DNA of 64,000 bases from Procambarus clarkii (taxonomy: Eukaryota > Arthropoda > Malacostraca > Decapoda > Cambaridae). This document shows, piece by piece, positions 5,147 to 48,540 of the stretch. A model generated the notes under the pieces. It did no database searches and was not told the origin of the DNA. It saw only the letters and a list, made by a program, of their open reading frames with translations. The position numbers and the translations under genes are program-made. The DNA is taken from contig NC_091195.1 in NCBI RefSeq assembly GCF_040958095.1, forward strand, positions 25,818,684-25,882,683, read 5' to 3'. The first letter of the stretch is position 1. Every line of letters starts with the position of its first letter.

Positions 5147-5555
5147 TGGAAAAGTCTCGTTTGTGTACCCAAGTCTAAATGCCCACGTAACTACCCAACT
5201 CCAGGGCAATTCAACAGATTGTAAACCATCTACAATAACAGTACACTGAGATATTCCTGGCTCTATACCATCCAGGAGAGTATACTTAGAGATTCATCAG
5301 CTGTAAGCCATACAGAAGGGGAGTATACAAGACATATAGAGAGTATACTGAGACATGCTCATATGTAAACTATGTTGAAGGAGAGTATAGTGAGATGATA
5401 TAATGAAGGTGAGGTTAATGTAACCTTCTGTAGCTCTCATGGAGATTAACTTTAAAGGGAACAGACTAGTTTACGTAGCTCCTGGCAGTGGTGGTATACA
5501 TGCGTGGTGTATGGGGGTATACATGTGTGGTGTAGTTAGTGTGTGTTGGAGTGTA
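5147..5555. other. No gene recognised; loose repeats of gagagtatac
   Basis: There are three or four scattered copies of gagagtatac-like motifs (about 5276-5390) and short ggtgta motifs near 5490-5550. I see no open frame or transposon motif here. Confidence 0.5.
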
Positions 5556-5686
5556 CTCACCTAATTGTGCTTGTGGGGGTTGAGCTCTGGCTCTTTGGTC
5601 CCGCCTCTCAACTGTCAATCAACTGGTGTACAGGTTCCTGAGCCTATTGGGCTCTATCATATCTACATTTGAAACTCCACCTGAAA

Positions 5687-6157
5687 CTATGAAACTATGG
5701 AATCAGCCTCCACCACATCACTTCCTAATGCATTCCATCTGTTAACTATTCCCGCACTGAAAAAGTTCTTTCTAACGTCCCTGTGGCTCATGTGGGTACT
5801 CAGTTTCCACCTGTGTCCCCTTGTTCGTGTGCCCCTTGTGTTAAATAGACTGTCTTTATCTACCGTATCAATACTTCTGAGAATCTTTTATGTGGTGATC
5901 ATGTCCCCTCTAACTTTTCTGTCTCCCAGTGACGTGAGGTTTAATTCCCGTAGTCTCTCCTCGTAGCTCATACCTCTCAGCTCGGGTACTAGTCTGGTGG
6001 CAAACCTTTGAACCTTTTCCAGTTTAGTCTTATCCTTGACTAGATATGGACTCCATGCTGGAGCCGCATACTCCAGGATTGGCCTGACATATGTGGTATA
6101 CAAAGTTCTGAATGATTCCTTACACAAGCTTCTAAAGGCCGTTCTTATGTTAGCCAA
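5687..6157 (-). pseudogene. LINE ORF2 C-terminal region with an internal nonsense codon
   Basis: A frame from 6157 reads TLYTTYVRPILEYAAPAWSP and KLEKVQRFATRLVP, the standard post-RT region of CR1-like ORF2. It hits TAA at 5888-5890. The same frame then continues past the stop with RDVRKNFFSAGIVNRWNALG up to TAG at 5687-5689, so the TAA is a point nonsense mutation and 5687 is the ancestral end. Between 6157 and 6355 the frame is broken by further small indels. Confidence 0.85.
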
Positions 6158-6354
6158 CCTGGCATATGCTGCTGATGTTATCCTCTTGATATGAGCTTCA
6201 GGGGACAGGTCTGGCGTGATATCAACCCCCAGGTCTTTCTCTCCCTCTCTGACTATTGAAGTATTTCATCTCCCAGATGATACCTTGTATCTGGCCTCCT
6301 GCTTCCTACGCCTATCTTCATTACATTACATTTGGTTGGGTTAAACTCTAACAA

Positions 6355-7601
6355 CTATTTGTTCGACCATTCCTGCAGCTTGTCCAGGTCTTCTTGAAGC
6401 CTCAAGCTGTCCTCCTCTGTCTTAATCCTTCTCATAATTTTGGCGTCGTCAGCAAACATTGAGAGGAATGAGTCTATACCCTCTGGGAGATCATTTACAT
6501 ATATCAGAAACAGGATAGGTCCGAGTACAGAGCCCTGTGGGACTCCACTGGTGACTTCACGCCAATCTGAGGTCTCACCCCTCACTGTAACTCTCTGCTT
6601 CCTATTGCTTAGATACTCCCTTATCCACTGGAACGCCCTACCAATTACTCCTGCCTGTTTCTCCAGCTTATGCATCAACCTTTTATGGGGTACTGTGTCA
6701 AAGGCTTTCCGACAGTCAAAAAAATGCAGTCCGCCCATCCTTCTCTTTCTTGCTTAATCTTTATCACCTGATCGTAGAATTCTATTAAACCTGTAAGGCA
6801 AGATTTACCCTCCCTGAACCCATGTTGATGGGTTGTCACGAAGTCCCTTCTCTTCAGATGTGTTACCAGGTTTTTTCTCACGATCTTCTCCATCACCTTG
6901 CATGGTATACAAGTCAAGGACACTGGCCTGTAGTTCAGTGCCTCTTGTCTGTCACCCTTTTTGTATATTGGGACCACATTCGCCGTCTTCCATATTTCTG
7001 GTAGGTCTCCCGTCTCCAGTGACCTACTATACACTATGGAGAGTGGTAAGCAAAATGCTCCTGCACACTCTTTCAATACCCATGATGAGGTTTCGTCCGG
7101 GCCAACAGCCTTTCTCACGTCCAGCTCCAATAGGTGCTTCTTGACCTCATCTTTTGTAATTTCGAACCTTTCCAAGGTCGCCTGGTTTGCTGCCACCTCT
7201 CCTAGCGCCGTGACCTCTCCTTGTTCTATTGTAAAGATCTCCTGGAACCTCTTCTTGAGTTCTTCACACACCTCTTTGTCATTCTCTGTGTACCTGTCCT
7301 CGCCCACCCTAAGTTTCATCACCTGTTCCTTGACTGTTGTTTTCCTCCTGATGTGACTGTGTAGTAGCTTTGGTTCGGTCTTGGCTTTATTAGCTATATC
7401 ATTTTTATACCTTTTCTCAGCTGCTCTTCTCACACTAACATACTCGTTCCTGGTTCTCTGGTATCTCTCTCTGCTTTCTGGTGTTCTGTTATTACGGAAG
7501 TTTCTCCATGCCCTTTTGTTCAGCTCCTTTGCTTTCATACATTCCTTATTAAACCATGGATTCTTCCTTTGCTTCTGTTTTTTCCTGTCGGGCTGGGACA
7601 A
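6355..7601 (-). pseudogene. LINE reverse transcriptase domain (CR1-like element)
   Basis: The first frame (7601-6675) contains KNPWFNKECMKAK in the linker, then VGPDETSSWVLKE, IYKKGDRQEALNYRPVSLT and HGFREGKSC, the RT finger and early palm motifs. A frameshift in an A-rich run near 6715-6725 passes to a second frame. That frame has FDCRKAFDTVPH (motif A Asp), SGVPQGSVLGPILFLIYVND (motif B) and FADDAKI (motif C, catalytic Asp pair). The SGVPQGSVLGPILF wording is typical of the CR1/Jockey group. The catalytic residues are present but the frame is not continuous. Confidence 0.93.
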
Positions 7602-8536
7602 ACCTGCTTACAGCCTCCTGACACTTTTGGGTGACATAGTCCATCATGTCTTGTACGGACTTGGTTCCGAGATCTGTGTCCCAATGTATATCCCATAGAA
7701 ATTTATTCATCTCCTCATAGTTTCTCTTTCGGTACGCCAGCCCTTTGTTTCCCAGTTCTTTTTTGGGGGTGATAATTCCTAGCTCAACCAGGTACTCAAA
7801 GCTCAATACACTATGATCACTCATTCCCAAGGACGCTTCCATCTTAACTTCCCTTATATCCGACTTATTTAGGGTAAATATCAGATCAAGCAAGGCTGGT
7901 TCATCCTCTCCTCTCATTCTTGTCGGTCCCTTGACGTGTTGACTTAGAAAGTTTCTTGTTGCCACATCCAGCAGCTTAGCTCTCCACGTGTCTGGTCCTC
8001 CATGCGGGTCTCTGTTCCCCCAATCTATCTTCCCATGGTTGAAGTCTCCCATGATTAGTAGCCTGGATCCGTTCCTGCTAGCCACAGAAGCTGCTCTCTA
8101 TTATATTGATGGTGGCCAAGTTGTTTCTATCATATTCCTGTCTAGGTCTTCTGACATTCGGTGGGGGGTTATATATGACTACTATTATAATTTTCTGTCC
8201 TCCAGTTGCTATGGTGCCTGATATGTAGTCACTGACACCTTCACAGTTCTGAATTACCATCTCTTCGAAACTCCAACCTTCTCTTAGTTGCAAAGCTACA
8301 CCACCACCTCCTCTCCCTTCTCTCTCTTTCCTCACTGCATAGTAGCCCTGTGGAAACACTGCGTTTGCTATAGTTTTCGTTAGCTTTGTTTCTGTGAGTG
8401 CTATTATGTCTGGGTTTTCTTCTAGTGCCCATTCTCCGAGTTCACTTGTTTTATTTGTAACCCCATCTAAGTTAGTGTACATTGCCTTGAAGCTCACTTT
8501 CTTCTGTTCATTTTCTTGTCCCTTTCTTGTCGAGCA
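7549..8536 (-). pseudogene. LINE apurinic-like endonuclease domain (CR1-like element)
   Basis: The domain is read in two frames joined by a frameshift near 8085. Motifs in order: MYTNLDG near the N-terminus, DIIALTETKL (catalytic Glu), VVIYNPP, LIMGDFNH (Asp/Asn pair) and GMSDHSVLSFE (catalytic Asp-His). All are diagnostic of the EEP-type endonuclease that nicks target DNA in APE-type LINEs. An ATG at 8536 starts a frame 13 codons before the conserved SFKAMYTN block and is a plausible ORF2 start. The second part runs into the RT N-terminal region and stops at 7549, where a second frameshift passes to the frame beginning near 7601. Confidence 0.9.
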
Positions 8537-8876
8537 TTCTGCTGGTGTGGGAAGCTGTTCCGTGGGTCAGAAGATCTGTGAGGTGGTTTGCAGGGTCTCA
8601 GAGGATTTTGGGGTGTGGGGGGTGGGGTTGAAGGGAAGGGGGGACAGTGTGTGGTGTAGTGTGTAGCTAGTGTGTGGTGTAGGCTCCACACTCCTGCTCC
8701 TGCCAGCCTACAAACGCAATAATAACTGTCTTCATGTAACTGTAATTGAGGATTTGTATCATGTTAAAACTGCGTCAAATTAATGACATAGATCCTGGTT
8801 ATCTCACTTTCAATAATTACTTAAGCGTAAATTATAACTTAATTGTATTACATAATATTGTCTTTTTTGTTCAGAA
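8537..8876. other. No gene recognised upstream of the LINE ORF2, up to the gap
   Basis: The first 160 bp are GT-rich and may be the remaining 5' part of the LINE. The rest (8700-8876) is AT-rich unique sequence. No ORF1 zinc knuckle is visible. Confidence 0.4.
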
Positions 8877-9376
8877 NNNNNNNNNNNNNNNNNNNNNNNN
8901 NNNNNNNNNNNNNNNNNNNNNNNNNNNNNNNNNNNNNNNNNNNNNNNNNNNNNNNNNNNNNNNNNNNNNNNNNNNNNNNNNNNNNNNNNNNNNNNNNNNN
9001 NNNNNNNNNNNNNNNNNNNNNNNNNNNNNNNNNNNNNNNNNNNNNNNNNNNNNNNNNNNNNNNNNNNNNNNNNNNNNNNNNNNNNNNNNNNNNNNNNNNN
9101 NNNNNNNNNNNNNNNNNNNNNNNNNNNNNNNNNNNNNNNNNNNNNNNNNNNNNNNNNNNNNNNNNNNNNNNNNNNNNNNNNNNNNNNNNNNNNNNNNNNN
9201 NNNNNNNNNNNNNNNNNNNNNNNNNNNNNNNNNNNNNNNNNNNNNNNNNNNNNNNNNNNNNNNNNNNNNNNNNNNNNNNNNNNNNNNNNNNNNNNNNNNN
9301 NNNNNNNNNNNNNNNNNNNNNNNNNNNNNNNNNNNNNNNNNNNNNNNNNNNNNNNNNNNNNNNNNNNNNNNNNNNN
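8877..9376. other. Assembly gap of 500 N
   Basis: Exactly 500 undetermined bases, a conventional scaffold gap size, so the real distance between the flanks is unknown. Confidence 0.99.
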
Positions 9377-9858
9377 CACTTTAACTCCGCCTATCCGAAG
9401 CCTATGGCCAATGGATTTAAACACAACTGGCTGATCTAGAAGCTTGGCCAATGGCATGGACAGGCACTACCCTCTGCGGACTCCGCCTCCACAAGCCTCC
9501 ATGGCTTCAACCAATCACAACCAGGCTTGAACATAAGGGTCAATTACTCTTGACAGAAAACTCCAGTAACTAGCACAGTACCATCACCCACGTGTAACTT
9601 GAGAACACAAGTTTATTGGCCCTGAGGTACTCTTTCCTATTCATCACTGGACAGATGGACAGGAGAGAGAGGGGAGCAAGTGACTTCACACTGTTTATGA
9701 CCACAAGGGTCAGACCGTGACTAATGGGAGGGATGACCTAAGGGAGGGAAGGCAAGTGAGGGAAGGGGAAGGAGCTATGGTCTGCACATACCATTACACA
9801 TGTGTGACGTATGTGGTCATGTTGTGCCCATGTGGTGACGTATGTGGTGTCATTCCAG
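9377..9858. other. No gene recognised; intergenic, promoter or intron DNA before exon A
   Basis: Mixed unique sequence with two gtggtgacgtatgtggt-like direct repeats (about 9805-9855). The 3' end, tggtgtcattccag at 9845-9858, is a plausible splice acceptor for the exon that follows. Confidence 0.4.
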
Positions 9859-10161
9859 GTGAGGCGGGAGGAGTAAGGCGGCGGCCATTATGGAGGGCCG
9901 CCCAGCTGGCCGCCTGCGGGCTCCTGGCCAGCCCCTGGCCACCCCACACCCCCTGCACCCCTGCTTCCCTCCCCTGGCCACCCACCCGGCGGGCCACGGA
10001 CCGGTCCACCACCATCCGGCCCACCTGCAGCACCCGGGCCACGCCGGCCACGACCCACATCCGGCTCCCAATGGTGACCTGACGACGCGCCGTGAGGACG
10101 ACCGCTCTCCCAAGTCGTCCAACTCTCACCTCTCACTGCTCTCTGCCTCCTTCCCCTGCAG
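9859..10161 (+). CDS. Putative first coding exon (exon A) of a host gene, ending at a strong splice donor
   Basis: A possible acceptor CAG ends at 9858. In-frame TGA occurs at 9860-9862, then the frame is open and the first ATG is at 9890, with A at -3 and G at +4, a good Kozak context. The frame runs 90 codons plus two bases to CAG at 10159-10161, followed by GTGAGT, a consensus donor (phase 2). The encoded segment is low-complexity, rich in His, Pro, Gly and Ala (HPAGHGPVHHHPAHLQHPGH), and ends in a Ser-rich stretch RSPKSSNSHLSLLSASF. It looks like a disordered N-terminus and I cannot name the protein. Phase 2 matches the acceptor of exon B at 30103, where the split codon would become AGC. 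The last 11 exon bases are copied into every unit of the adjacent array. An antisense frame is also open here but lacks splice support. Confidence 0.55.
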
Positions 10162-13113
10162 GTGAGTCCCCGTGACGTGTTCCCCTGCAGGTGAGTCCCC
10201 GTGACGTGTTCCCCTGCAGGTGAGTCCCCGTGACGTGTTCCCCTGCAGGTGAGTCCCCGTGACGTGTTCCCCTGCAGGTGAGTCCCCGTGACGTGTTCCC
10301 CTGCAGGTGAGTCCCCCGTGACGTGTACCCCTGCAGGTGAGTCCCCATGACGTGAACCCCTGCAGGTGAGTCCCCCTTGACGTGTACCCCTGCAGGTGAG
10401 TCCCCCATGACGTGTACCCCTGCCCCTACCCCTGCAGGTGAGTCCCCGTGACGTGTTCCCCTGCAGGTGAGTCCCCGTGACGTGTTCCCCTGCAGGTGAG
10501 TCCCCGTGACGTGTTCCCCTGCAGGTGAGTCCCCGTGACGTGTTCCCCTGCAGGTGAGTCCCCGTGACGTGTTCCCCTGCAGGTGAGTCCCCCGTGACGT
10601 GTACCCCTGCAGGTGAGTCCCCATGACGTGAACCCCTGCAGGTGAGTCCCCCTTGACGTGTACCCCTGCAGGTGAGTCCCCCATGACGTGTACCCCTGCC
10701 CCTACCCCTGCAGGTGAGTCCCCGTGACGTGTTCCCCTGCAGGTGAGTCCCCGTGACGTGTTCCCCTGCAGGTGAGTCCCCAGTGACGTGTTCCCCTGCA
10801 GGTGAGTCCCCCGTGACGTGTACCCCTGCAGGTGAGTCCCCCGTGACGTGTACCCCTGCAGGTGAGTCCCCCATGACGTGTACCCCTGCAGGTGAGTCCC
10901 CATGACGTGAACCCCTGCAGGTGAGTCCCCCTTGACGTGTACCCCTGCAGGTGAGTCCCCCATGACGTGTACCCCTGCCCCTACCCCTGCAGGTGAGTCC
11001 CCGTGACGTGTTCCCCTGCAGGTGAGTCCCCATGACGTGTTCCCCTGCAGGTGAGTCCCCGTGACGTGTTCTCCTGCAGGTGAGTCCCCCTGACATGTAC
11101 CCCTGCAGGTGAGTCCCCCATGACGTGTACCCCTGCAGGTGAGTCCCCCTGACGTGTTCCCCTGCAGGTGTGTCCCCCTGACGTGTTCCCTGCAGGTGAG
11201 TCCCCTTGACGTGTACCCCTGGAGGTGAGTCCCCCTTGACGTGTACCCCTGCCCCTACCCCTGCAGGTGAGTCCCCATGACGTGTACCCCTGCAGGTGAG
11301 TCCCCCTTGACGTGTACCCCTGCAGGTGAGTCCCCATGACGTGTACCCCTACAGGTGACTCCCCCATGACGTGTACCCCTGCAGGTGACTCCCCCATGAC
11401 GTGTACCCCTGCAGGTGAGTCCCCCATGACGTGTACCCCTGCAGGTGAGTCCCCTTGACGTGTACCCCTGGAGGTGAGTCCCCCTTGACGTGTACCCCTG
11501 CAGGTGAGTCCCCCATGACGTGTACCCCTGCAGGTGAGTCCCCTTGACGTGTACCCCTGGAGGTGAGTCCCCCTTGACGTGTACCCCTGCAGGTGAGTCC
11601 CCTTGACGTGTACCCCTGGAGGTGAGTTCCCCTTGACGTGTACCCCTGCAGGTGAGTCCCCTTGACGTGTACCCCTGCAGGTGAGTCCCCATGACGTGTA
11701 CCCCTGCAGGTGAGTCCCCCTTGACGTGTACCCCTGGAGGTGAGTCCCCCTTGACGTGTACCCCTGCAGGTGAGTCCCCTTGACGTGTACCCCTGGAGGT
11801 GAGTCCCCCTTGACGTGTACCCCTGGAGGTGAGTCCCCCTTGACGTGTACCCCTGGAGGTGAGTTCCCCTTGACGTGTACCCCTGGAGGTGAGTCCCCCT
11901 TGACGTGTACCCCTGGAGGTGAGTCCCCCTTGACGTGTACCCCTGCAGGTGAGTCCCCTTGACGTGTACCCCTGCAGGTGAGTCCCCCTTGACGTGTACC
12001 CCTGCAGGTGAGTCCCCCATGACGTGTACCCCTACAGGTGAGTCCCCCATGACGTGTACCCCTGCAGGTGAGTCCCCCATGACGTGTACCCCTACAGGTG
12101 AGTCCCCCATGACGTGTACCCCTACAGGTGAGTCCCCCATGACGTGTACCCCTACAGGTGAGTCCCCCATGACGTGTACCCCTGCAGGTGAGTCCCCTTG
12201 AGGTGTACCCCTGGAGGTGAGTCCCCCTTGACGTGTACCCCTGCCCCTACCCCTGCAGGTGAGCCCCCCATGACGTGTACCCCTGCAGGTGAGTCCCCCA
12301 TGACGTGTACCCCTGCAGGTGAGTCCCCCATGACGTGTACCCCTGCAGGTGAGTCCCCATGACGTGCACCCCTGCAGGTGAGTCCCCCATGACGTGTACC
12401 CCTGCAGGTGAGTCCCCCATGACGTGTACCCCTGCAGGTGAGTCCCCTATGACGTGTACCCCTGCAGGTGAGTCCCCTATGACGTGTACCCCTGCAGGTG
12501 AGTCCCCCATGACGTGTACCCCTGCAGGTGAGTCCCCCATGACGTGTACCCCTGCAGGTGAGTCCCCCATGACGTGTACCCCTGCAGGTGAGTCCCCCAT
12601 GACGTGTACCCCTGCAGGTGAGTCCCCCATGACGTGTACCCCTGCAGGTGAGTCCCCCATGACGTGTACCCCTGCAGGTGAGTCCCCCATGACGTGTACC
12701 CCTGCAGGTGAGTCCCCCATGACGTGTACCCCTGCAGGTGAGTCCCCCATGACGTGTACCCCTGCAGGTGAGTCCCCCATGACGTGTACCCCTGCAGGTG
12801 AGTCCCCCATGACGTGTACCCCTGCAGGTGAGTCCCCCATGACGTGTACCCCTGCAGGTGAGTCCCCCATGACGTGTACCCCTGCAGGTGAGTCCCCCAT
12901 GACGTGTACCCCTGCAGGTGAGTCCCCCATGACGTGTACCCCTGCAGGTGAGTCCTCCATGACGTGTACCCCTGCAGGTGAGTCCCCCATGACGTGTACC
13001 CCTGCAGGCGAGTCCCCCATGACGTGTACCCCTGCAGGTGAGTCCCCCATGACGTGTACCCCTGCAGGTGAGTCCCCCATGACGTGTACCCCTGCAGGTG
13101 AGTCCCCCATGAC
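10151..13113 (+). repeat. 29-30-bp array carrying a splice-donor motif in every unit, about 100 copies
   Basis: Each unit holds ttcccctgcag (or tacccctgcag) followed by gtgagtcccc and then tgacgtgt. The first copy is the real exon-A/intron junction: the last 11 bases of the exon and the first 18-19 intron bases were amplified together. Early copies are 29 bp with gtgacgtgtt. Later copies are 30 bp with catgacgtgtac and are nearly identical from about 12360 to 13113. A compound block ending in cccctgcccctacccctgcag recurs at about 10330-10440, 10600-10710 and 10900-10990, a higher-order repeat. The long open frames on both strands are by-products of the stop-free unit. Confidence 0.96.
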
Positions 13114-13132
13114 AACGTGTCGGTCCACCGGT

Positions 13133-13176
13133 CCGTCCTGGACCACGAGTGGGGTCCAACAAGTGGTCCAGGACGG
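13133..13176. repeat. Perfect 14-bp inverted repeat with a 16-nt loop
   Basis: ccgtcctggaccac at 13133-13146 is the exact reverse complement of gtggtccaggacgg at 13163-13176. It sits in the short unique spacer between two arrays, and parts of it (ggtccaggacg) resemble the unit of the following 42-bp array. Confidence 0.9.
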
Positions 13177-13279
13177 GTCATTAGTCCTAGGCAGCCAGGG
13201 TAATTGGGCTGTTAGGTAGACAAAAGCACATGTGTTGACGCAGTTATTGTGAGAGTTTGAGGCACGTGGGTGAGGTGGA

Positions 13280-16200
13280 CGACCTGTCGTGTTCCACTAC
13301 TGGGTCAGTAGTCCCCCTGGACGACCTGTCGTGTTCTACTACTGGGTCAGTAGTCCCCCTGGACGACCTGTCGTGTTCCACTACTGGGTCAGTATAGTCC
13401 CCCAGGACGACCTGTCGTGTCCACTAGTGTTCCACTAGTCCCCTAGGACGACCTGTCATGTCCACTAGTGTTCCACTAGTCCCCCAGAACGACCTGTCGT
13501 GTCCACTACTGGACCAGTAGTCCCCCTGGACGACCTGTCGTGTTCCACTACTGGGTCAGTAGTCCCCTTGGACGACCTGTCGTGTTCCACTACTGGGTCA
13601 GTAGTCCCCCTGGACGACCTGTCGTGTTCCACTACTGGGTCAGTAGTCCCCCAGGACGACCTGTCGTGTCCACTAGTGTTCCACTAGTCCCCCAGAACGA
13701 CCTGTCGTGTCCACTATTGGACCAGTAGTCCCCCAGGACGACCTGTCGTGTTCCACTACTGGGTCAGTAGTCCCCCTGGACGACCTGTCGTGTTCACTAC
13801 TGGACCACTAGTCCCCCAGGACGACCTGTCGTGTTCCACTACTGGGTCAGTAGTCCCCCAGGACGACCTGTCGTGTCCACTAGTGTTCCACTAGTCCCCC
13901 AGAACGACCTGTCGTGTTCCACTACTGGGTCAGTAGTCCCCCTGGACGACCTGTCGTGTTCTACTACTGGGTCAGTAGTCCCCCTGGACGACCTGTCGTG
14001 TTCCACTACTGGGTCAGTATAGTCCCCCAGGACGACCTGTCGTGTCCACTAGTGTTCCACTAGTCCCCCAGAACGACCTGTCGTGTTCCACTACTGGGTC
14101 AGTAGTCCCCCTGGACGACCTGTCGTGTTCTACTACTGGGTCAGTAGTCCCCCTGGACGACCTGTCGTGTTCCACTACTGGGTCAGTATAGTCCCCCAGG
14201 ACGACCTGTCATGTCCACTAGTGTTCCACTAGTCCCCCAGAACGACCTGTCGTGTCCACTACTGGACCAGTAGTCCCCCTGGACGACCTGTCGTGTTCCA
14301 CTACTGGGTCAGTAGTCCCCTTGGACGACCTGTCGTGTTCCACTACTGGGTCAGTAGTCCCCCTGGACGACCTGTCGTGTTCCACTACTGGGTCAGTAGT
14401 CCCCCAGGACGACCTGTCGTGTTCACTACTGGACCACTAGTCCCCGAGGACGACCTGTCGTGTTCCACTACTGGACCAGTAGTCCCCCAGGACGACCTGT
14501 CGTGTTCCACTACTGGGTCAGTAGTCCCCCAGGACGACCTGTTGTGTCCACTACTGGACCACTAGTCCCCCAGGACGACCTGTCGTGTTCCACTAGTGGT
14601 CCACTAGTCTCCCAGGACGACCTGTCGTGTTCCACTACTGGACCAGTAGTCCCCCAGGACGACCTGTCGTGTTCCACTACTGGGTCAGTAGTCCCCCAGG
14701 ACGACCTGTCGTGTTCCACTACTGGGTCAGTAGTCCCCCAGGACGACCTGTCGTGTTCCACTACTGGGTCAGTAGTCCCCCAGGACGACCTGTCGTGTTC
14801 ACTACTGGACCACTAGTCCCCCAGAACGACCTGTCGTGTTCCAATACTGGACCAGTAGTCCCCCAGGACGACCTGTCGTGTCCACTACTGGACCACTAGT
14901 CCCCCAGGACGACCTGTCGTGTTCCACTACTGGGTCAGTAGTCCCCCAGGACGACCTGTTGTGTCCACTACTGGACCACTAGTCCCCCAGGACGACCTGT
15001 CGTGTTCCACTAGTGGTCCACTAGTCCCCCAGGACGACCTGTCGTGTTCCACTACTGGACCAGTAGTCCCCCAGGACGACCTGTCGTGTTCCACTACTGG
15101 GTCAGTAGTCCCCCAGGACGACCTGTCGTGTTCCACTACTGGGTCAGTAGTCCCCCAGGACGACCTGTCGTGTCCACTAGTGGGTCACTAGTCCCCCAGG
15201 ACGACCTGTCGTGTTCCACTACTGGGTCAGTTGTCCCCCAGGACGACCTGTCGTGTTCCACTAGTGGTCCACTAGTCCCCCAGGACGACCTGTCGTGTTC
15301 AATACTGGGTCAGTAGTCCCCCTGGACGACCTGTCGTGTTCACTACTTGTCCACTAGTCCCCCAGGACGACCTGTCGTGTTCACTACTGGACCACTAGTC
15401 CCCCAGGACGACCTGTCGTGTCCACTACTTGTCCACTAGTCCCCCAGGACGACCTGTCGTGTTCCACTACTTGTCCATTAGTCCCCCAGGACGACCTGTC
15501 GTGTTCCACTACTGGGTCAGTAGTCCCCCAGAACGACCTGTCGTGTTAAACTACTTGTCCACTAGTCCCCCTGGACGACCTGTCGTGTTCACTACTGGAC
15601 CACTAGTCCCCCAGAACGACCTGTCGTGTTCCACTAGTGGTCCACTAGTCCCCCTGGACGACCTGTCGTGTTCACTACTTGTCCACTAGTCCCCCTGGAC
15701 GACCTGTCGTGTCCACTAGTGGTCCACTAGTCCCCCAGGACGACCTGTCGTGTTCACTACTGGACCACTAGTCCCCCAGGACGACCTGTCGTGTTCCACT
15801 ACTTGTCCACTAGTCCCCCAGGACTACCTGTCGTGTTCCACTACTTGTCCACTAGTCCCCCTGGACGACCTGTCGTGTTCCACTAGTGGGTCACTAGTCC
15901 TCCAGGACGACCTGTCGTGTTCCACTAGTGGGTCACTAGTCCCCCAGAACGACCTGTCGTGTCCACTACTGGTCCACTAGTCCCCCAGGACGACCTGTCG
16001 TGTTCCACTAGTGGGTCACTAGTCCTCCAGGACGACCTGTCGTGTCCACTACTGGTCCACTAGTCCCCCAGGACGACCTGTCGTGTTCCACTAGTGGGTC
16101 ACTAGTCCCCCAGGACGACCTGTCGTGTCCACTACTGGTCCACTAGTCCCCCAGGACGACCTGTCGTGTCCACTACTGGTCCACTAGTCCCCCAGGACGA

Positions 16201-19200
16201 CCTGTCGTGTTCCACTACTGGTCCACTAGTCGCCCAGGACGACCTGTCGTGTCCACTACTGGTCCACTAGTCCCCCAGGACGACCTGTCGTGTCCACTAG
16301 TGGGTCACTAGTCCCCCAGGACGACCTGTCGTGTTCCACTAGTGGGTCACTAGTCCCCCAGGACGACCTGTCGTGTCCACTACTGGGTCACTAGTCCCCC
16401 TGGACGACCTGTCGTGTCCACTACTGGGTCACTAGTCCCCCCAGGACGACCTGTCGTGTCCACTACTGGTCCACTAGTCCCCCAGGACGACCTGTCGTGT
16501 CCACTAGTGGGTCACTAGTCCCCCAAGGACGACCTGTCGTGTTCCACTAGTGGGTCACTAGTCCCCCAGGACGACCTGTCGTGTTCCACTAGTGGGTCAC
16601 TAGTCCCCCAGGACGACCTGTCGTGTTCCACTAGTGGGTCACTAGTCCCCCCAGAACGACCTGTCGTGTTCCACTAGTGGGTCACTAGTCCCCCAGGACG
16701 ACCTGTCGTGTTCCACTAGTGGGTCACTAGTCCCCCAGGACGACCTGTCGTGTCCACTAGTGGGTCACTAGTCCCCCAGAACGACCTGTCGTGTTCCACT
16801 AGTGGGTCACTAGTCCCCCAGGACGACCTGTCGTGTTCCACTAGTGGGTCAGTAGTCCCCCAGGACGACCTGTCGTGTTCCACTAGTGGTCCACTAGTCC
16901 CCCAGGACGACCTGTCGTGTTCACTAGTGGGTCACTAGTCCCCCAGGACGACCTGTCGTGTCCACTAGTGGGTCAGTAGTCCCCCAGGACGACCTGTCGT
17001 GTTCCACTAGTGGGTCACTAGTCCCCCAGGACGACCTGTCGTGTCCACTAGTGGGTCAGTAGTCCCCCAGGACGACCTGTCGTGTTCCACTAGTGGTCCA
17101 CTAGTCCCCCACGACGACCTGTCGTGTTCCACTAGTGGGTCACTAGTCCCCCAGGACGTCCTGTCGTGTCCACTAGTGGGTCAGTAGTCCCCCAGGACGA
17201 CCTGTCGTGTTCCACTAGTGGTCCACTAGTCCCCCAGGACGACCTGTCGTGTTCCACTACTTGTCCATTAGTCTCCCAGGACGACCTGTCGTGTTCCACT
17301 ACTGGGTCAGTAGTCCCCCAGAACGACCTTTCGTGTTAAACTACTTGTCCACTAGTCCCCCTGGACGACCTGTCGTGTTCACTACTGGACCACTAGTCCC
17401 CCAGAACGACCTGTCGTGTTCCACTAGTGGTCCACTAGTCCCCCTGGACGACCTGTCGTGTTCACTACTTGTCCACTAGTCCCCCTGGACGACCTGTCGT
17501 GTCCACTAGTGGTCCACTAGTCCCCCAGGACGACCTGTCGTGTTCACTACTGGACCACTAGTCCCCCAGGACGACCTGTCGTGTTCCACTACTTGTCCAC
17601 TAGTCCCCCAGGACGACCTGTCGTGTTCCACTACTTGTCCACTAGTCCCCCTGGACGACCTGTCGTGTTCCACTAGTGGGTCACTAGTCCTCCAGGACGA
17701 CCTGTCGTGTTCCACTAGTGGGTCACTAGTCCCCCAGAACGACCTGTCGTGTCCACTACTGGTCCACTAGTCCCCCAGGACGACCTGTCGTGTTCCACTA
17801 GTGGGTCACTAGTCCTCCAGGACGACCTGTCGTGTCCACTACTGGTCCACTAGTCCCCCAGGACGACCTGTCGTGTTCCACTAGTGGGTCACTAGTCCCC
17901 CAGGACGACCTGTCGTGTCCACTACTGGTCCACTAGTCCCCCAGGACGACCTGTCGTGTCCACTACTGGTCCACTAGTCCCCCAGGACGACCTGTCGTGT
18001 TCCACTACTGGTCCACTAGTCGCCCAGGACGACCTGTCGTGTCCACTACTGGTCCACTAGTCCCCCAGGACGACCTGTCGTGTCCACTAGTGGGTCACTA
18101 GTCCCCCAGGACGACCTGTCGTGTTCCACTAGTGGGTCACTAGTCCCCCAGGACGACCTGTCGTGTCCACTACTGGGTCACTAGTCCCCCTGGACGACCT
18201 GTCGTGTCCACTACTGGGTCACTAGTCCCCCCAGGACGACCTGTCGTGTCCACTACTGGTCCACTAGTCCCCCAGGACGACCTGTCGTGTCCACTAGTGG
18301 GTCACTAGTCCCCCAAGGACGACCTGTCGTGTTCCACTAGTGGGTCACTAGTCCCCCAAGGACGACCTGTCGTGTTCCACTAGTGGGTCACTAGTCCCCC
18401 AGGACGACCTGTCGTGTTCCACTAGTGGGTCACTAGTCCCCCAGGACGACCTGTCGTGTTCCACTAGTGGGTCACTAGTCCCCCCAGGACGACCTGTCGT
18501 GTTCCACTAGTCCCCCAGGACGACCTGTCGTGTCCACTAGTGGGTCACTAGTCCCCCTGGACGACCTGTCGTGTTCCACTAGTGGGTCACTAGTCCCCCT
18601 GGACGACCTGTCGTGTCCACTAGTGGGTCACTAGTCCCCCTGGACGACCTGTCGTGTTCCACTAGTGGGTCACTAGTCCCCCAGGACGACCTGTCGTGTC
18701 CACTAGTGGGTCACTAGTCCCCCTGGACGACCTGTCGTGTTCCACTAGTGGGTCACTAGTCCCCCTGGACGACCTGTCGTGTCCACTAGTGGGTCACTAG
18801 TCCCCCTGGACGACCTGTCGTGTCCACTAGTGGGTCACTAGTCCCCCTGGACGACCTGTCGTGTTCCACTAGTGGGTCACTAGTCCCCCTGGATGACCTG
18901 TCGTGTTCCACTAGTCCCCCAGGACGACCTGTCGTGTCCACTAGTCCCCCAGGACGACCTGTCGTGTTCCACTAGTCCCCCAGGACGACCTGTCGTGTCC
19001 ACTAGTCCCCCAGGACGACCTGTCGTGTTCCACTAGTCCCCCAGGACGACCTGTCGTGTTCACTAGTGGGTCACTAGTCCCCCAGGACGACCTGTCGTGT
19101 TCACTAGTGGGTCACTAGTCCCCCAGGACGACCTGTCGTGTTCCACTAGTCCCCCTGGACGACCTGTCGTGTCCACTAGTGGGTCACTAGTCCCCCAGGA

Positions 19201-19775
19201 CGACCTGTCGTGTTCACTAGTGGGTCACTAGTCCCCCAGGACGACCTGTCGTGTTCCACTAGTCCCCCTGGACGACCTGTCGTGTCCACTAGTGGGTCAC
19301 TAGTCCCCCAGGACGACCTGTCGTGTTCCACTAGTCCCCCAGGACGACCTGTCGTGTTCACTAGTGGGTCACTAGTCCCCCAGGACGACCTGTCGTGTTC
19401 ACTAGTGGGTCACTAGTCCCCCAGGACGACCTGTCGTGTCCACTAGTCCCCCAGGACGACCTGTCGTGTTCCACTAGTCCCCCAGGACGACCTGTCGTGT
19501 CCACTAGTCCCCCAGGACGACCTGTCGTGTCCACTAGTCCCCCAGGACGACCTGTCGTGTTCCACTAGTCCCCCAGGACGACCTGTCGTGTTCACTAGTG
19601 GGTCACTAGTCCCCCAGGACGACCTGTCGTGTTCACTAGTGGGTCACTAGTCCCCCAGGACGACCTGTCGTGTTCCACTAGTCCCCCTGGACGACCTGTC
19701 GTGTCCACTAGTGGGTCACTAGTCCCCCAGGACGACCTGTCGTGTTCCACTAGTCCCCCAGGACGACCTGTCGTG
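13280..19775. repeat. 42-bp array (with 40-41-bp and 31-bp variants), about 165 copies
   Basis: The core is cgacctgtcgtgttccacta followed by a small palindromic module (ctgggtcagtagt, gtgggtcactagt or gtggtccactagt) and cccccagga. Units lacking the palindromic module (31 bp) are common only in the last kilobase (18900-19775). A block of about 1.1 kb starting near 15460 is repeated 1790 bp downstream: the rare variant gttaaactacttg occurs at 15544 and 17334, and gtcgcccaggac at 16229 and 18019. That shows segmental duplication inside the array. Short open frames here are not genes. Confidence 0.95.
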
Positions 19776-19954
19776 GTTTAAATCTGTGTGTTGTGGTTTT
19801 TCTGACTCGTGGATTTTTGTACAGATTCGGTGTCGTTTTTGTTGCGATAATCCGGATTTCTTTAACGGATTCACGGGATGAGCGGGAGACCGGACTGTGG
19901 AGACGGGCATTGTGTCGAGGAGAAATGTGATTATTATCTGATCAACACGACCTG

Positions 19955-20135
19955 ATCCCCTAGTTGTGCTTGCGGGGGTTGAGCTCTGGCTCTTTGGTCC
20001 CGCCTCTCAACCGTCAATCAACAGGTGTACAGGTTCCTGAGCCTATTGGGCTCTATCATATCTACACTTGAAACTGTGTATGGAGTCAGCCTCCACCACA
20101 TCACTGCCTAATGCATTCCACCTGTCAACCACAGA
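19955..20135 (-). mobile_element. Solo 3' end of the CR1-like LINE
   Basis: The stretch from about 19957 (ctagttgtgcttgcgggggt) through gagcctattgggctctatca to gtcagcctccaccacatcac matches 5560-5740 almost base for base, in the same orientation. It holds the 3' UTR and the last ORF2 codons only, so this is a severely 5'-truncated copy inserted in the large intron. Confidence 0.88.
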
Positions 20136-20475
20136 GAGAGCAGCTTCAGAAAACCCACAAGATCTTCTCTGAATGCTCTTCATTTTCTTCTTCAAGGCTG
20201 TGGGTCCCTACACTTGCACCAGAGGTGGTACCCCTACTATATATAATATATATATAATATAAGAGGCCGCTGGCCGCCCCGTGGCCGCCTCTTAAATATT
20301 CAAGACATTCTCTATTATAAAATTATAATTTCACCTGAGAAGACTTCACGTAACTCTAGATTTTCATATTTTATTTTTGTGTGGCCTGTGTGTGTGCGAG
20401 GAGACCCGGGCCGTGCAGGCCACGGTGGTACAAGTGGTGTTTAACATATATATAAAGGGGTTACCTCCTTTGGTG
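20136..20475. other. No gene recognised; AT-rich spacer between arrays
   Basis: Unique DNA with a short TATA-rich stretch at about 20235-20262 and a second atatatataaagg at 20446-20458. The latter could pass as a TATA box, but no coding start follows, only an array. Confidence 0.4.
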
Positions 20476-20479
20476 CAGT

Positions 20480-23400
20480 TGTGTGGCCCTGTGGCTCTCT
20501 TCCACGGTGTTGGCCACCCCTTGTGGCCCTCTACACGGTGTTGGCCACCCTTGTGGCACTCTACATGGTGTTGGCCACTCCTTGTGGCCCTCTACACGGT
20601 GTTGGCCACCCCTTGTGGCCCTCTACATGGTGTTGGCCACCCTTGTGGCCCTATTCACGGTGTCGGCCACCCCTTGTGGCCCTCTACACGGTGTTGGCCA
20701 CCCCTTGTGGCCCTCTACACGGTGTTGGCCACCCCTTGTGGCCCTCTACACGCTGTTGGCCACCCCGTGTCGCCCTCTACACGGTGTTGGCCAACCCTTG
20801 TGGCCCTCTACACGGTGTTGGCCACCCCTTGTGGCCCTCTACACGATGTTGGCCACCCCTTGTGGCCCTCAACACGGTGTTGGCCACCCGTTGTGGCCCT
20901 CTACACAGTGTTGGCTACCCTTGTGGCCCTCTACACGGTGTTGGCCACCCTTGTGGCCCTCTACACGGTGTTGGCCACCCTTGTGGCCCTCTACACGGTG
21001 TTGGCCACCCTTGTGGTCCTCTACACGGTGTTGGCCACCCTTGTGGTCCTCTACACGGTGTTGGCCACCCTTGTGGTCCTCTACACGGTGTTGGCCACCC
21101 TTGTGGCCCTCTACACGGTGTTGGCCACCCTTGTGGCCCTCTACACGGTGTTGGCCACCCTTGTGGCCGTCTACACGGTGTTGGCCACCCTTGTGGCCCT
21201 CTACACTGTGTTGGCCACCCTTGTGGCCCTCTACACAGTGTTGGCCACCCTTGTGGCCCTCTACACAGTGTTGGCCACCCCTTGTGGCCCTCTACACAGT
21301 GTTGGCCACCCCTTGTGGCCCTCTACACGGTGTTCGCCACCCTTGTGGCCCTCTACACGGTGCTGGCCACCCTTGTGGCCCTCTACACGGTGTTGGCCAC
21401 CCCTTGTGGCCCTCTACACGGTGTTGGCCACCCCTTGTGGCCCTCTACACGGTGTTGGCCACCCCTTGTAGCCCTCTACAGTGTTGGCCGCCCTTGTGGC
21501 CCTCTACACGGTGTTGGCCACCCTTGTGGCCCTCTACAGTGTTGGCCACCCCTTGTGTCCTCTACATGGTGTTGGCGACCCCTTGTGGCCCTCTACGCGG
21601 TGTTGGCCACCCTTTGTGGCCCTCTACGCGGTGTTGGCCAGCCTTTGTGGCCCTCTACGCGGTGTTGGCCACCTTTTGTGGCCCTCTACACGGTGTTGGC
21701 CACCCTTGTGGCCCTCTACACTGTGTTTGCCACCCTTGTGGCCCTCTACACGGTGTTGGCCACCCTTGTGGCCCTCTACACGGTGTTGGCCACCCCTTGT
21801 GGCCCTCTACACGGTGTTGGCCACCCTTGTGGCCCTCTACACGGTGTTGGCCACCCCTTGTGGCCCTCTACACGGTGTTGGCCACCCCTTGTGGCCCTCT
21901 ACACGGTGTTGGCCACCCTTGTGGCCCTCTACATGGTGTTGGCAACCCTTGTGGCCCTCTACACTGTGTTGGCCACCCTTGTGGCCCTCTACACTGTGTT
22001 GGCCACCCCTTGTGGCCCTCTACATGGTGTTGGCCACCCTTTGTGGCCCTCTACACGGTGTTGGCCACCCCTTGTGGCCCTCTACACGGTGTTGGCCACC
22101 CCTTGTGGCCCTCTACACGGTGTTGGCCACCCTTGTGGCCCTCTACACTGTGTTGGCCACCCTTGTGGCCCTCTACACTGTGTTGGCCACCCTTGTGGCC
22201 CTCTACACTGTGTTGGCCACCCTTGTGGCCCTCTACACTGTGTTGGCCACCCTTAAGGCCCTTTACACGGTGTTGACCACCCCTTGTGGCTCTCTACACG
22301 GTGCTGGCCACCCCTTGTGGCCCTCTACACGGTGCTGGTCACCCTTGTGGCCCTCTACACGGTGCTGGTCACCCTTGTGGCCCTCTACACGGTGTTGGCC
22401 ACCCTTGTGTCCCTCTACACGGTGTTGGCCACCCCTTGTGGCCCTCTACACGGTGTTGTCCACCCTTGTGGCCCTCTACACGGTGTTGGCCACCCCTTGT
22501 GGCCCTCTACACGGTGTTGGCCACCCCTTGTGGCCCTCTACACGGTGTTGGCCACCCTTGTGGCCCTCTACACGGTGTTGGCCACACCTTGTGGCCCTCT
22601 ACACGGTGTTGGCCATCCCTTGTGGCCCTCTACACGGTGTTGGCCACCCTTGTGGCCCTCTACACGGTGTTGGCCACCCTTGTGGCCCTCTAAACGGTGT
22701 TGGCCACTCTTGTGGCCCTCTACACGGTGTTGGCCACCCCTTGTGGCCCTCTACTTGGTGTTGGCCACCCCTTGTGGCCCTCTAAACGGTGTTGGCCACC
22801 CTTGTGGCCCTCTACACGGTGTTGGCCACCCTTGTAGCCCTCTAAACGGTGTTGGCCACCCTTGTGGCCGTCTACACGGTGCTGGCCACCCTTGTGGCCC
22901 TCTACACTGTGTTGGCCACCTTTGTGGCCCTCTACACAGTGTTGGCCACCCTTGTGGCCCTCAACACAGTGTTGGCCACCCCTTGTGGCCCTCTACACAG
23001 TGTTGGCCACCCCTTGTGGCCCTCTACACAGTGTTGGCCACCCCTTGTGGCCCTCTACACAGTGTTGGCCACCCCTTGTGGCCCTCTACACGGTGCTGGC
23101 CACCCTTGTGGCCCTCTACACGGTGTTGGCCACCCCTTGTGGCCCTCTACACGGTGTTGGCCACCCTTGTGGCCCTCTACACGGTGTTGGCCACCCCTTG
23201 TGGCCCTCTACACGGTGTTGGCCACCCTTGTGGCCCTCTACATGGTGTTGGCAACCCTTGTGGCCCTCTACACTGTGTTGGCCACCCTTGTGGCCCTCTA
23301 CACTGTGTTGGCCACCCCTTGTGGCCCTCTACATGGTGTTGGCCACCCTTTGTGGCCGTCTACACGGTGTTGGCCACCCCTTGTGGCCCTCTACACGGTG

Positions 23401-26400
23401 TTGGCCACCCTTGTGGCCCTCTACACTGTGTTGGCCACCCTTGTGGCCCTCTACACAGTGTTGGCCACCCCTTGTGGCCCTCTACACAGTGTTTTCCACC
23501 CCTTGTGGCCCTCTACACGGTGTTGGCCACCCCTTGTGGCCGTCTACACGGTGTTGGCCACCCCTTGTGGCCCTCTACACGGTGTTGGCCACCCCTTGTG
23601 GCCCTCTACACGGTGTTGGCCACCTTTGTGGCCCTCTACACAGTGTTGGCCACCCTTGTGGCCCTCAACACAGTGTTGGCCACCCCTTGTGGCCCTCTAC
23701 ACAGTGTTTTCCACCCCTTGTGGCCCTCTACACGGTGTTGGCCACCCCTTGTGGCCCTCTACACGGTGTTGGCCACCCTTGTGGCCCTCTACACGGTGTT
23801 GGCCACACCTTGTGGCCCTCTACACGGTGTTGGCCATCCCTTGTGGCCCTCTACACGGTGTTGGCCACCCTTGTGGCCCTCTACACGGTGTTGGCCACCC
23901 TTGTGGCCCTCTAAACGGTGTTGGCCACCCTTGTGGCCCTCTACACGGTGTTGGCCACCCCTTGTGGCCCTCTACTTGGTGTTGGCCACCCCTTGTGGCC
24001 CTCTAAACGGTGTTGGCCACCCTTGTGGCCCTCTACACGGTGTTGGCCACCCTTGTAGCCCTCTAAACGGTGTTGGCCACCCTTGTGGCCGTCTACACGG
24101 TGCTGGCCACCCTTGTGGCCCTCTACACTGTGTTGGCCACCTTTGTGGCCCTCTACACAGTGTTGGCCACCCTTGTGGCCCTCTACACAGTGTTGGCCAC
24201 CCCTTGTGGCCCTCTACACAGTGTTGGCCACCCCTTGTGGCCCTCTACACAGTGTTGGCCACCCCTTGTGGCCCTCTACACAGTGTTGGCCACCCCTTGT
24301 GGCCCTCTACACGGTGCTGGCCACCCTTGTGGCCCTCTACACGGTGTTGGCCACCCCTTGTGGCCCTCTACACGGTGTTGGCCACCCTTGTGGCCCTCTA
24401 CACGGTGTTGGCCACCCCTTGTGGCCCTCTACACGGTGTTGGCCACCCTTGTGGCCCTCTACATGGTGTTGGCAACCCTTGTGGCCCTCTACACTGTGTT
24501 GGCCACCCTTGTGGCCCTCTACACTGTGTTGGCCACCCCTTGTGGCCCTCTACATGGTGTTGGCCACCCTTTGTGGCCGTCTACACGGTGTTGGCCACCC
24601 CTTGTGGCCCTCTACACGGTGTTGGCCACCCCTTGTGGCCCTCTACACGGTGTTGGCCACCCTTGTGGCCCTCTACACTGTGTTGGCCACCCTTGTGGCC
24701 CTCTACACAGTGTTGGCCACCCCTTGTGGCCCTCTACACAGTGTTTTCCACCCCTTGTGGCCCTCTACACGGTGTTGGCCACCCCTTGTGGCCCTCTACA
24801 CGGTGTTGGCCACCCCTTGTGGCCGTCTACACGGTGTTGGCCACCCCTTGTGGCCCTCTACACGGTGTTGGCCACCCCTTGTGGCCCTCTACACGGTGTT
24901 GGCCACCCCTTGTGGCCCTCTACACGGTGTTGGCCACCTTTGTGGCCCTCTACACAGTGTTGGCCACCCTTGTGGCCCTCAACACAGTGTTGGCCACCCC
25001 TTGTGGCCCTCTACACAGTGTTTTCCACCCCTTGTGGCCCTCTACACAGTGTTGGCCACCCCTTGTGGCCCTCTACACGGTGTTCGCCACCCTTGTGGCC
25101 CTCTACACGGTGCTGGCCACCCTTGTGGCCCTCTACACGGTGTTGGCCACCCCTTGTGGCCCTCTACACGGTGTTGTCCACCCTTGTGGCCCTCTACACG
25201 GTGTTGGCCACCCCTTGTGGCCCTCTACACGGTGTTGGCCACCCTTGTGGCCCTCTAGACGGTGTTGGCCACACCTTGTGGCCCTCTACACGGTGTTGGC
25301 CATCCCTTGTGGCCCTCTACACGGTGTTGGCCACCCTTGTGGCCCTCTACACGGTGTTGGCCACCCTTGTGGCCCTCTAAACGGTGTTGGCCACCCTTGT
25401 GGCCCTCTACACGGTGTTGGCCACCCCTTGTGGCCCTCTACTTGGTGTTGGCCACCCCTTGTGGCCCTCTAAACGGTGTTGGCCACCCTTGTGGCCCTCT
25501 ACACGGTGTTGGCCACCCTTGTGGCCCTCTAAACGGTGTTGGCCACCCTTGTGGCCGTCTACACGGTGCTGGCCACCCTTGTGGCCCTCTACACTGTGTT
25601 GGCCACCTTTGTGGCCCTCTACACAGTGTTGGCCACCCTTGTGGCCCTCAACACAGTGTTGGCCACCCCTTGTGGCCCTCTACACAGTGTTGGCCACCCC
25701 TTGTGGCCCTCTACACAGTGTTGGCCACCCCTTGTGGCCCTCTACACGGTGTTCGCCACCCTTGTGGCCCTCTACACGGTGCTGGCCACCCTTGTGGCCC
25801 TCTTCACGGTGTTGGCCACCCCTTGTGGCCCTCTACACGGTGTTGGCCACCCCTTGTAGCCCTCTACAGTGTTGGCCGCCCTTGTGGCCCTCTACACGGT
25901 GTTGGCCACCCTTGTGTCCTCTACATGGTGTTGGCGACCCCTTGTGGCCCTCTACGCGGTGTTGGCCACCCCTTGTGGCCCTCTACGCGGTGTTGGCCAC
26001 CCCTTGTGGCCCTCTACGCGGTGTTGGCCACCTTTTGTGGCCCTCTACATGGTGTTGGCCACCCTTGTGGCCCTCTACACTGTGTTTGCCACCCTTGTGG
26101 CCCTCTACACTGTATTGGCCACCCTTGTGGCCCTCTACACGGTGTTGGCCACCCTTGTGGCCCTCTACACGGTGTTGGCCACCCCTTGTGGCCCTCTACA
26201 CGGTGTTGGCCACCCTTGTGGCCCTCTACACGGTGTTGGCCACCCCTTGTGGCCCTCTACACGGTGTTGGCCACCCTTGTGGCCCTCTACATGGTGTTGG
26301 CAACCCTTGTGGCCCTCTACACTGTGTTGGCCACCCTTGTGGCCCTCTACACTTTGTTGGCCACCCCTTGTGGCCCTCTACACGGTGTTGGCCACCCTTT

Positions 26401-27812
26401 GTGGCCCTCTACACGGTGTTGGCCACCCCTTGTGGCCCTCTACACGGTGTTGGCCTCCCTTGTGGCCCTATCTACACTGTGTTGGCCACCCTTGTGGCCC
26501 TCTACACTGTGTTGGCCACCCTTGTGGCCCTCTACACTGTGTTGGCCACCCTTAAGGCCCTTTACACGGTGTTGGCCACCCCTTGTGGCTCTCTACACGG
26601 TGCTGGCCACCCCTTGTGGCCCTCTACACGGTGCTGGTCACCCTTGTGGCCCTCTACACGGTGTTGGCCACCCTTGTGGCCCTCTACACGGTGTTGGCCA
26701 CCCTCGTGTCCCTCTACACGGTGTTGGCCACCCCTTGTGGCCCTCTACACGGTGTTGTCCACCCTTGTGGCCCTCTACACGGTGTTGGCCACCCCTTGTG
26801 GCCCTCTACACGGTGTTGGCCACCCTTGTGGCCCTCTACACGGTGTTGGCCACACCTTGTGGCCCTCTACTCGGTGTTGGCCATCCCTTGTGGCCCTCTA
26901 CACGGTGTTGGCCACCCTTGTGGCCCTCTACACGGTGTTGGCCACCCTTGTGGCCCTCTAAACGGTGTTGGCCACCCTTGTGGCCCTCTACACGGTGTTG
27001 GCCACCCCTTGTGGCCCTCTACTTGGTGTTGGCCACCCCTTGTGGCCCTCTAAACGGTGTTGGCCACCCTTGTGGCCCTCTACACGGTGTTGGCCACCCT
27101 TGTGGCCCTCTAAACGGTGTTGGCCACCCTTGTGGCCCTCTAAACGGTGTTGGCCACCCTTGTGGCCCTCTAAACGGTGTTGGCCACCCCTTGTGGCCCT
27201 CTACTTGGTGTTGGCCACCCCTTGTGGCCCTCTAAACGGTGTTGGCCACCCTTGTGGCCCTCTACACGGTGTTGGCCACCCTTGTGGCCCTCTACACGGT
27301 GTTGGCCACCCTTGTGGCCCTCTAAACGGTGTTGGCCACCCTTGTGGCCCTCTAAACGGTGTTAGCCACCCTTGTGGCCCTCTAAACGGTGTTGGCCACC
27401 CTTGTGGCCCTCTAAACGGTGTTGGCCACCCTTGTGGCCCTCTACACGGTGTTGGCCACCCCTTGTGGCCCTCTACTTGGTGTTGGCCACCCCTTGTGGC
27501 CCTCTAAACGGTGTTGGCCACCCTTGTGGCCCTCTACACGGTGTTGGCCACCCTTGTGGCCCTCTAAACGGTGTTGGCCACCCTTGTGGCCCTCTAAACG
27601 GTGTTAGCCACCCTTGTGGCCCTCTAAACGGTGTTGGCCACCCCTTGTGGCCCTCTACACAGTGTTGGCCACCCTTGTGGCCCTCTAAACGGTGTTGGCC
27701 ACCCCTTGTGGCCCTCTACACAGTGTTGGCCACCCCTTGTGGCCCTCTACACGGTGTTGGCCACCCCTTGTGGCCCTCTACACGGTGTTGGCCACCCTTG
27801 TGGCCCTCTACA
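20480..27812. repeat. 30/31-bp array, about 240 copies, with higher-order repeats
   Basis: The unit is gtgttggccacccttgtggc followed by cctctacacg. The 31-bp form has one extra C (ccccttg). Because 30- and 31-bp units mix, all three plus-strand frames are largely open, producing spurious frames up to 1062 codons. Marker variants (ggtgctggcc, gtgttttcc, ctacttggtg, ctctaaacgg) recur in the same order 1221 bp apart. The block from about 22690 to 23910 is repeated at about 23914 to 25130, a clear higher-order unit. The array is directly followed, with no spacer, by the 17-bp array. Confidence 0.96.
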
Positions 27813-28092
27813 CCTCGTAGCGTCACCGAGCTCGTAACACCACCGACCTCGTAACACCACCGACCTCGTAACACCACCGACCTCGTAACACCACCGACCT
27901 CGTAACACCACCGACCTCGTAACACCACCGACCTCGTAACACCACCGACCTCGTAACACCACCGACCTCGTAACACCACCGACCTCGTAACACTATTGAC
28001 CTCGTAACACCACCGACCTCGTAACACTATTGACCTCGTAACACCACCGACCTCGTAACACCACCCACCTCGTAACACCACCGACCTCGTAA
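27813..28092. repeat. 17-bp array cctcgtaacaccaccga, about 16 copies
   Basis: Head-to-tail units with occasional cactattga variants. It joins the 30/31-bp array on its left at ctctacacctcgtag and the 13-bp array on its right at ctcgtaatcat, so three unrelated arrays abut. Confidence 0.94.
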
Positions 28093-28096
28093 TCAT

Positions 28097-48489: not shown

Positions 48490-48540
48490 TTACAACGACC
48501 AGTTTAATTTAATTAATTTTTCCCCGAGGGGCGAGTTTAT

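Follow-up and report, generated by a model that had tools for sequence, protein, structure and literature searches.

The 5' splice site of a conserved crustacean gene is here the first of 98 tandem copies of itself. With a probability of roughly 0.8, we interpret this donor array as a near-neutral, junction-spanning minisatellite (a "mirage") in which the outermost copies work and the rest are decoys. The array begins within coding exon A and extends into intron 1 of the gene. It lies in the window, by which we mean the whole stretch of 64,000 bases that was analyzed. The features between exons A and B are as follows, with a slash marking a splice junction within a sequence.

9890 to 10161, plus strand: exon A, with a likely start ATG at 9890 and its end in phase 2; the last 11 bases, TTCCCCTGCAG, belong to the repeat unit.
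10151 to 13113, plus strand: donor array, 98 copies of CCCCTGCAG/GTGAGTCCCC...; copy 1 is the true donor (10162) and the others are putative intronic decoys.
10162 to 30102, plus strand: intron 1, 19,941 bases, of which 18,855 (94.6%) lie in six tandem arrays.
13277 to 19775, no strand assigned: minisatellite in intron 1, about 160 copies of a unit of about 42 bases, with no donor-like motif scoring 8 or more.
20490 to 27813, no strand assigned: minisatellite in intron 1, about 240 copies of a unit of about 30 bases.
27812 to 28092 (17-base unit) and 28095 to 28509 (13-base unit), no strand assigned: two abutting arrays in intron 1.
28719 to 30110, plus strand: acceptor array, about 45 units, mostly of 30 to 33 bases, of TCTCTTGACAG/CTTGACCTAACATGACCTGG; exon B has its true acceptor in the final unit.
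30103 to 30220, plus strand: exon B, SLTSSINDLTSEAAVLETAIKNNDTYQVKRLLELHHDKFQ, entered in phase 2 and left in phase 0.

The donor array, parsed by donor, has a 29/30-base unit to which exon A contributes its last 11 bases and intron 1 its first 18 to 19. Its 97 spacings are 30 bases (59 cases), 29 bases (32), 42 bases (5), and 28 bases (1). The exact sequence CAGGTGAGT was present in 82 of the 98 copies and GAGGTGAGT in 11, with other forms in the remaining 5. In ungapped columns, AG was intact in 98/98 copies and GT in 97/98. There was no occurrence of CAGGTGAGT outside the array on the plus strand of the 64,000-base window. A sequence-only reading of this DNA had reported about 100 tandem copies at these positions, almost all keeping CAG/GTGAGT and each setting an acceptor directly against a donor, and our counts bear this out, with nearly every unit reading AG/GT. 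Donor scores were calculated from a position weight table of donor base frequencies for both strands of all 25 arrays in the window; only the donor array reached 12.5, and the next best score was 8.9. The first five units after the first junction are identical in sequence. They are followed by a nine-unit block (AAAAABCDE) that is repeated once, and the far end consists of single-unit runs. TACCCC was found in 79 of the 98 copies, compared to TTCCCC in exon A, a change that the exon could not accept if it is to retain the Phe.

Exon A joins exon B in frame (...SHLSLLSASFPC/SLTSSINDLTSEAAVLETAIKNNDTYQVKRLLELHHDKFQ), and one of three protein searches retrieved Homarus americanus P0007 with 73% identity and 93% of the query covered. 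The SASFPC/SLTSS junction is common to this protein and to Hyalella azteca P0001. The gene structure and these two orthologues thus agree with the earlier proposal that the donor is a genuine exon end. Other matches came from krill (P0002), Scylla (P0004, which has a different start ahead of exon B), and Penaeus (P0005), and two were weak (P0003, with an E value of 0.14, and P0006). P0003 ends in SASFPCRLVPI, a departure exactly at the A/B junction, and we read it as apparently running into an intron at the matching position. The database names "serine-rich," "ripk4," and "YHR217C" look like automatic labels. The Pfam accessions on the krill, Scylla, and Penaeus entries are those of what we take to be ankyrin repeats. 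Exon A belongs to a conserved, uncharacterized ankyrin-repeat gene of malacostracan crustaceans; searches of Pfam and PDB with exons A and B gave no match. The gene continues downstream of the window on the same strand, with exon C at +1829 to +1938, exon D at +7862 to +9215, and then exons E to I, and exons A to D together form 618 codons without a stop. Exons E and F occur twice in tandem around an N gap (downstream +28105 to +30538, L025-L026), as either an assembly duplication or a true tandem copy. Upstream of exon A, positions 9380 to 9800 are a dispersed repeat; scoring 40 of the 489 candidates gave 62 matches, and the best other copies are 86% identical over about 430 bases. Positions 1 to 1760 and 5540 to 8600 are presumably reverse-transcriptase-like remnants, comprising a Penelope-like piece and a minus-strand LINE-like piece.

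The acceptor of intron 1 is arrayed as well, and its unit includes the first 8 bases of exon B. Most units contain a CTAAC branch-point-like stretch about 21 bases before the AG, a pyrimidine run, and the AG itself, and the array, which includes TTTTGACAG units, holds 38 CAG and 2 GAG acceptors. By script count, AG was present in 38 of 45 units, made up of 26/27 close to exon B and 12/18 at a distance from it (P = 0.012). The seven units counted as lacking AG comprise six distant ones and one (29655) where the parse split a unit and left its AG in the following piece. Selection on the acceptor copies was rejected as an explanation, since duplicated blocks mean that the copies are not independent. 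The exon-derived portions of the two units (TTC CCC TGC AG in exon A and C TTG ACC T in exon B) are conserved codons, indicating that in both cases the exon is the source and the array is the copy. The exon B donor at 30221 (CAG/GTCAGT) is not arrayed. The sequence-only reading included neither this acceptor array nor the recurrence of such arrays in the gene and genome, nor did it name the known class (mirages; ABCA7).

Two further observations concern intron 1 and its surroundings. Arrays cover 44,056 of the 64,000 bases of the window (68.8%), and three of those in intron 1 adjoin within 2 to 3 bases (27812 to 28095), as if the ends of old arrays start new ones. The acceptor array also contains 27 copies of TGACCTAACATGACCT, or 38 when TGAGCT is allowed as the first half. 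We take this motif to be the reverse complement of an AGGTCA direct repeat with a spacing of 4, resembling a nuclear-receptor DR4 element. The likeness is probably due to chance, because half of the motif is exon sequence.

We additionally examined the consequences of donor and acceptor choice for the reading frame. Only one of 3,724 donor-acceptor combinations in intron 1 was open to the end of exon B, namely, the first donor with the last acceptor. These combinations pair 98 AGGT sites (97 unit donors plus a stray AGGT at 12203 inside a unit, with the GC copy at 13008 excluded) with the 38 CAG sites, the two GAG acceptors being left out. Later donors joined to the true acceptor read AGG TGA immediately, and four examples of earlier acceptors read AGC TTG ACC TAA or AGC TTG AGC TAA. 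It had been suggested that the exon could be extended in 29- to 30-base steps and that the array could act as a splice-site buffer. None of the 97 other AGGT sites leaves the frame open with the true acceptor, so that such an extension would run into an immediate stop. The genuine donor and the AG/GT units of that reading stand, but the stepwise extension and a buffer of harmless spare sites are not supported.

Intron 3, just beyond the window, has both of its splice sites repeated. Its donor is present in 10 copies of a 38-base unit that takes in about 30 exon bases, and its acceptor is present in 4 copies of a 31-base unit. Only the outermost sites keep the frame, with 0/9 later donors and 0/3 upstream acceptors leaving it open. 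At an exon-anchored array elsewhere (L020, 51-base unit), all six later donors keep the frame and are stop-free, indicating that the stop rule of the gene in the window is not general. L020 is a donor array at an Ig-like exon, where the use of inner donors would lengthen the product by stop-free repeats of 17 residues.

The frequency of such arrays was assessed in the gene and in the genome (4.03 Gb, 2,308 contigs), which the Homarus similarity and the repeats suggest is crayfish-like. Triple CAGGTRAGT, with 16 to 46 bases between motifs and thus roughly at the spacing of the donor array, gave 9,714 + 9,528 matches genome-wide, compared to 28,016 + 28,954 for the reversed motif. This control is a single motif, and the counts lean on large arrays, since one array yields many matches. 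The argument that about 100 donors are beyond chance and hence functional was rejected, as donor-motif arrays are common genome-wide while being rarer than those of the reversed motif. In the 262 kb that was read (248.6 kb without N), there were 110 arrays with a TRF score of at least 60, a period of at least 7, at least 3 copies, and at least 60 bases, and the probability that a random point of the collapsed sequence falls within a unit was 0.032. Four of the 14 placed junctions of the gene (the A donor, B acceptor, C donor, and D acceptor) lie inside arrays, against an expected 0.44; the donor of exon F, exon I, and the duplicates of exons E and F are not among the 14. Without the reported junction, the count was 3/13 (nominal P = 0.007), an excess over chance that comes from one gene and a post-hoc choice. 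Two further arrays start or end no more than 12 bases from a junction (the H donor and the G acceptor), and the array nearest to the exon E acceptor, which ends at +28070, is separated from it by 34 bases or more. The array before exon G (downstream +30798 to +31483) has a 16/33-base unit with TACTAAC and ends 12 bases short of the acceptor, so that a branch-point-like motif is repeated many times beside a true acceptor.

Other exon-anchored arrays were found outside the gene. Among the matches listed, all on contig C1, 14 donor-motif arrays were sampled, and 4 of them begin where a coding exon ends. The sample comprised 14 of about 23 arrays distinguished by eye among the first 100 or so places listed, and the 9 left out were mostly dispersed or repeated families. 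In Pfam, three of the four exons matched above the cut-off (An_peroxidase, 7tm_1, and PDZ) and one below it (Ig_3). An independent sample was drawn from G protein-coupled receptor (GPCR) exons, with 20 boundaries of 147 7tm_1 matches, 15 of them having a clear splice consensus by eye. An array runs across one of the 20 boundaries (L043, with a 40-base unit and 9.1 copies inside the stretch), a frequency no different from the chance rate of 0.032 per point. In the same sample, another array begins about 5 bases into the intron (L056). A third 7tm_1 exon end (L059) carries a two-copy duplication around CCACAG/GTATGGTTGATGA, of the AGGT-duplication type proposed to create introns. A near-identical 51-base unit occurs in opposite orientation in the arrays at 48538 to 50265 and at downstream +42226 to +44116, indicating that some arrays belong to dispersed families rather than having been seeded locally. 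Together, these counts bear on whether splice junctions are preferred minisatellite seeds in this genome rather than random hits. The excess of arrayed junctions within the gene speaks for such a hotspot. However, the donor motif was rarer than its reversed control and the GPCR boundaries fit chance, and we regard the idea as possible but doubtful.

Explanations in which the copies have a function, or do not exist as assembled, were considered on the same evidence. In recursive splicing, the copies would be zero-length exons, with exon A joined to an inner AG and the intron removed stepwise. The AG/GT units with their consensus donors are suited to this; when the sequences are joined, splicing of donor 1 to an inner AG would rebuild exon A/GTGAGT, an identical junction that would leave no trace in the mRNA. 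The pyrimidine content before the AG was 0.65 and 0.59 in two inner copies, compared to 0.59 at the true acceptor, and human AGGT sites that work both ways are documented in the available text of PMC10809524. However, each unit has a short pyrimidine run rich in C, its branch-like TGAC precedes the AG by only some 15 bases, and the array arises without any such need, so recursion appears improbable. We consider dosage control somewhat less improbable, though still unlikely. Under this explanation, some transcripts would use inner donors or acceptors, carry a stop, and be degraded, and array length would tune output. The stop in 3,723 of 3,724 combinations is what it predicts, and for the human ABCA7 repeat, retention of one unit and lower expression with a longer variable-number tandem repeat (VNTR) are described (PMC5954066, in the text available). 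However, the same text states that its authors saw no effect of VNTR length on NMD (PMC5954066). A stop is moreover expected in most extended frames and is no sign of design, and the six extensions at L020 contain none. Misassembly that inflated the copy number, or produced the array itself, is very improbable. A 500-base N gap (8877 to 9376) lies about 780 bases upstream, and the duplicated exon pair beside the downstream N gap suggests local assembly trouble. However, the copies show variants in an ordered succession that includes a higher-order block, the array at the acceptor is independent of this one, and other contigs carry arrays of a similar kind. A 300-base piece of the donor array folded better than 60 shuffles (simple dinucleotide walk; z of about -3), and the probability of all 9 donor bases being open together was low in every copy, at 1.1e-3 for the first donor and 1.2e-3 for the second, while the median of the copies other than the first was 7e-5. 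The idea that RNA structure conceals the inner donors was rejected, as the first donor equals the second and there is no clear switch.

A minisatellite process that is sometimes seeded across a splice junction explains the observed structure, gene, frame, source of the exon bases, and recurrence without invoking a function. We propose that a 29/30-base segment across the exon A/intron 1 boundary underwent tandem duplication and then expansion to its present 98 copies and that like events occurred independently for a 31-base segment at the intron 1 acceptor and, in intron 3, at either end. The duplication would grow into the intron, so that the outermost copy stays joined to the exon as the working site and the inner copies become intronic decoys. 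Splicing would proceed mostly via the outermost pair, the sole pair that keeps the frame, and use of an inner copy would give a stop-containing mRNA. The arrays may persist as nearly neutral elements in a genome full of minisatellites. The preservation of AG and GT in the donor copies could also reflect selection, but recent expansion explains it equally well.

The closest known systems are the mirages of amphioxus (Adh3 and the globins BflGb6 and BflGb9), in which, according to the available text, minisatellite-like units lie across a 5' or 3' boundary and many keep AG/GT (PMC3087553). The arrays here share two of the properties of mirages, with units that span the exon-intron boundary at exons A and B and an end copy that is the authentic boundary of a real gene. 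In amphioxus, RT-PCR suggested that regular splicing was undisturbed, and the Adh3 mirage units are 10 to 72 bp long (PMC3087553, text available). The copy numbers, 98 and about 45 here, compare with 6 and 3 in two BflGb6 haplotypes (PMC3087553, text available). The present case differs in being from a crustacean and in that the donor and the acceptor of the same intron are both arrayed, which occurs in two introns of the gene. Among the literature compared, the most detailed donor-side case is the VNTR in intron 18 of human ABCA7, with about 12 to 427 copies of 25-bp units that lie directly at exon 18 and include the donor (PMC5954066, text available). The first copy is canonical there, and the one-unit retention gives a frameshift (PMC5954066, text available). 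That repeat is described as starting at the GT and is on the donor side only, and the available text makes no mention of exon bases (PMC5954066).

Other systems resemble the arrays in part, as far as the available texts describe them. Dual-specific sites and UBC arrays likewise have tandem AG/GT usable as a donor or an acceptor, but the UBC repeats are coding monomers, whereas those here are intronic (PMC10809524). The Rogers model of intron gain by tandem duplication also involves tandem AGGT duplicates; in contrast, an existing conserved intron here gained copies of its own boundaries, and no new intron is apparent (PMC4974935). Human duplicated genes contain minisatellites with units of about 30 bp, some of them at exon-intron boundaries and said to be able to form new introns, but these average about 4 copies and belong to primate segmental duplications (PMC2812944). 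Crayfish genomes are described as minisatellite rich, as here, and the main text of that satellitome study, in the form available, contains no words beginning with "intron," "exon," or "splic" (PMC13130569). Arrays at both ends of one intron, or arthropod arrays in such numbers, were not met within a limited search of partly available literature, and we make no claim to a first report.

The presence of identical splice sites by the dozen in a conserved gene removes sequence strength as an explanation of site choice and leaves position, exon definition, and the order of transcription. Two doubly arrayed introns of one gene, together with five exon-anchored arrays that small samples revealed elsewhere, provide material for this question. 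Boundary arrays also bear on the lengthening of introns and on the possible origin of new ones. A broader suggestion, which we put forward only tentatively, is that this crayfish-like lineage has splice junctions as hot minisatellite seeds and that the donor and acceptor of many of its introns are now present in dozens to a hundred copies at the intron ends, with the outermost copy winning and, possibly, silent recursive steps. If true, the genome as a whole would serve as a natural experiment on the choice of one site from many identical ones.
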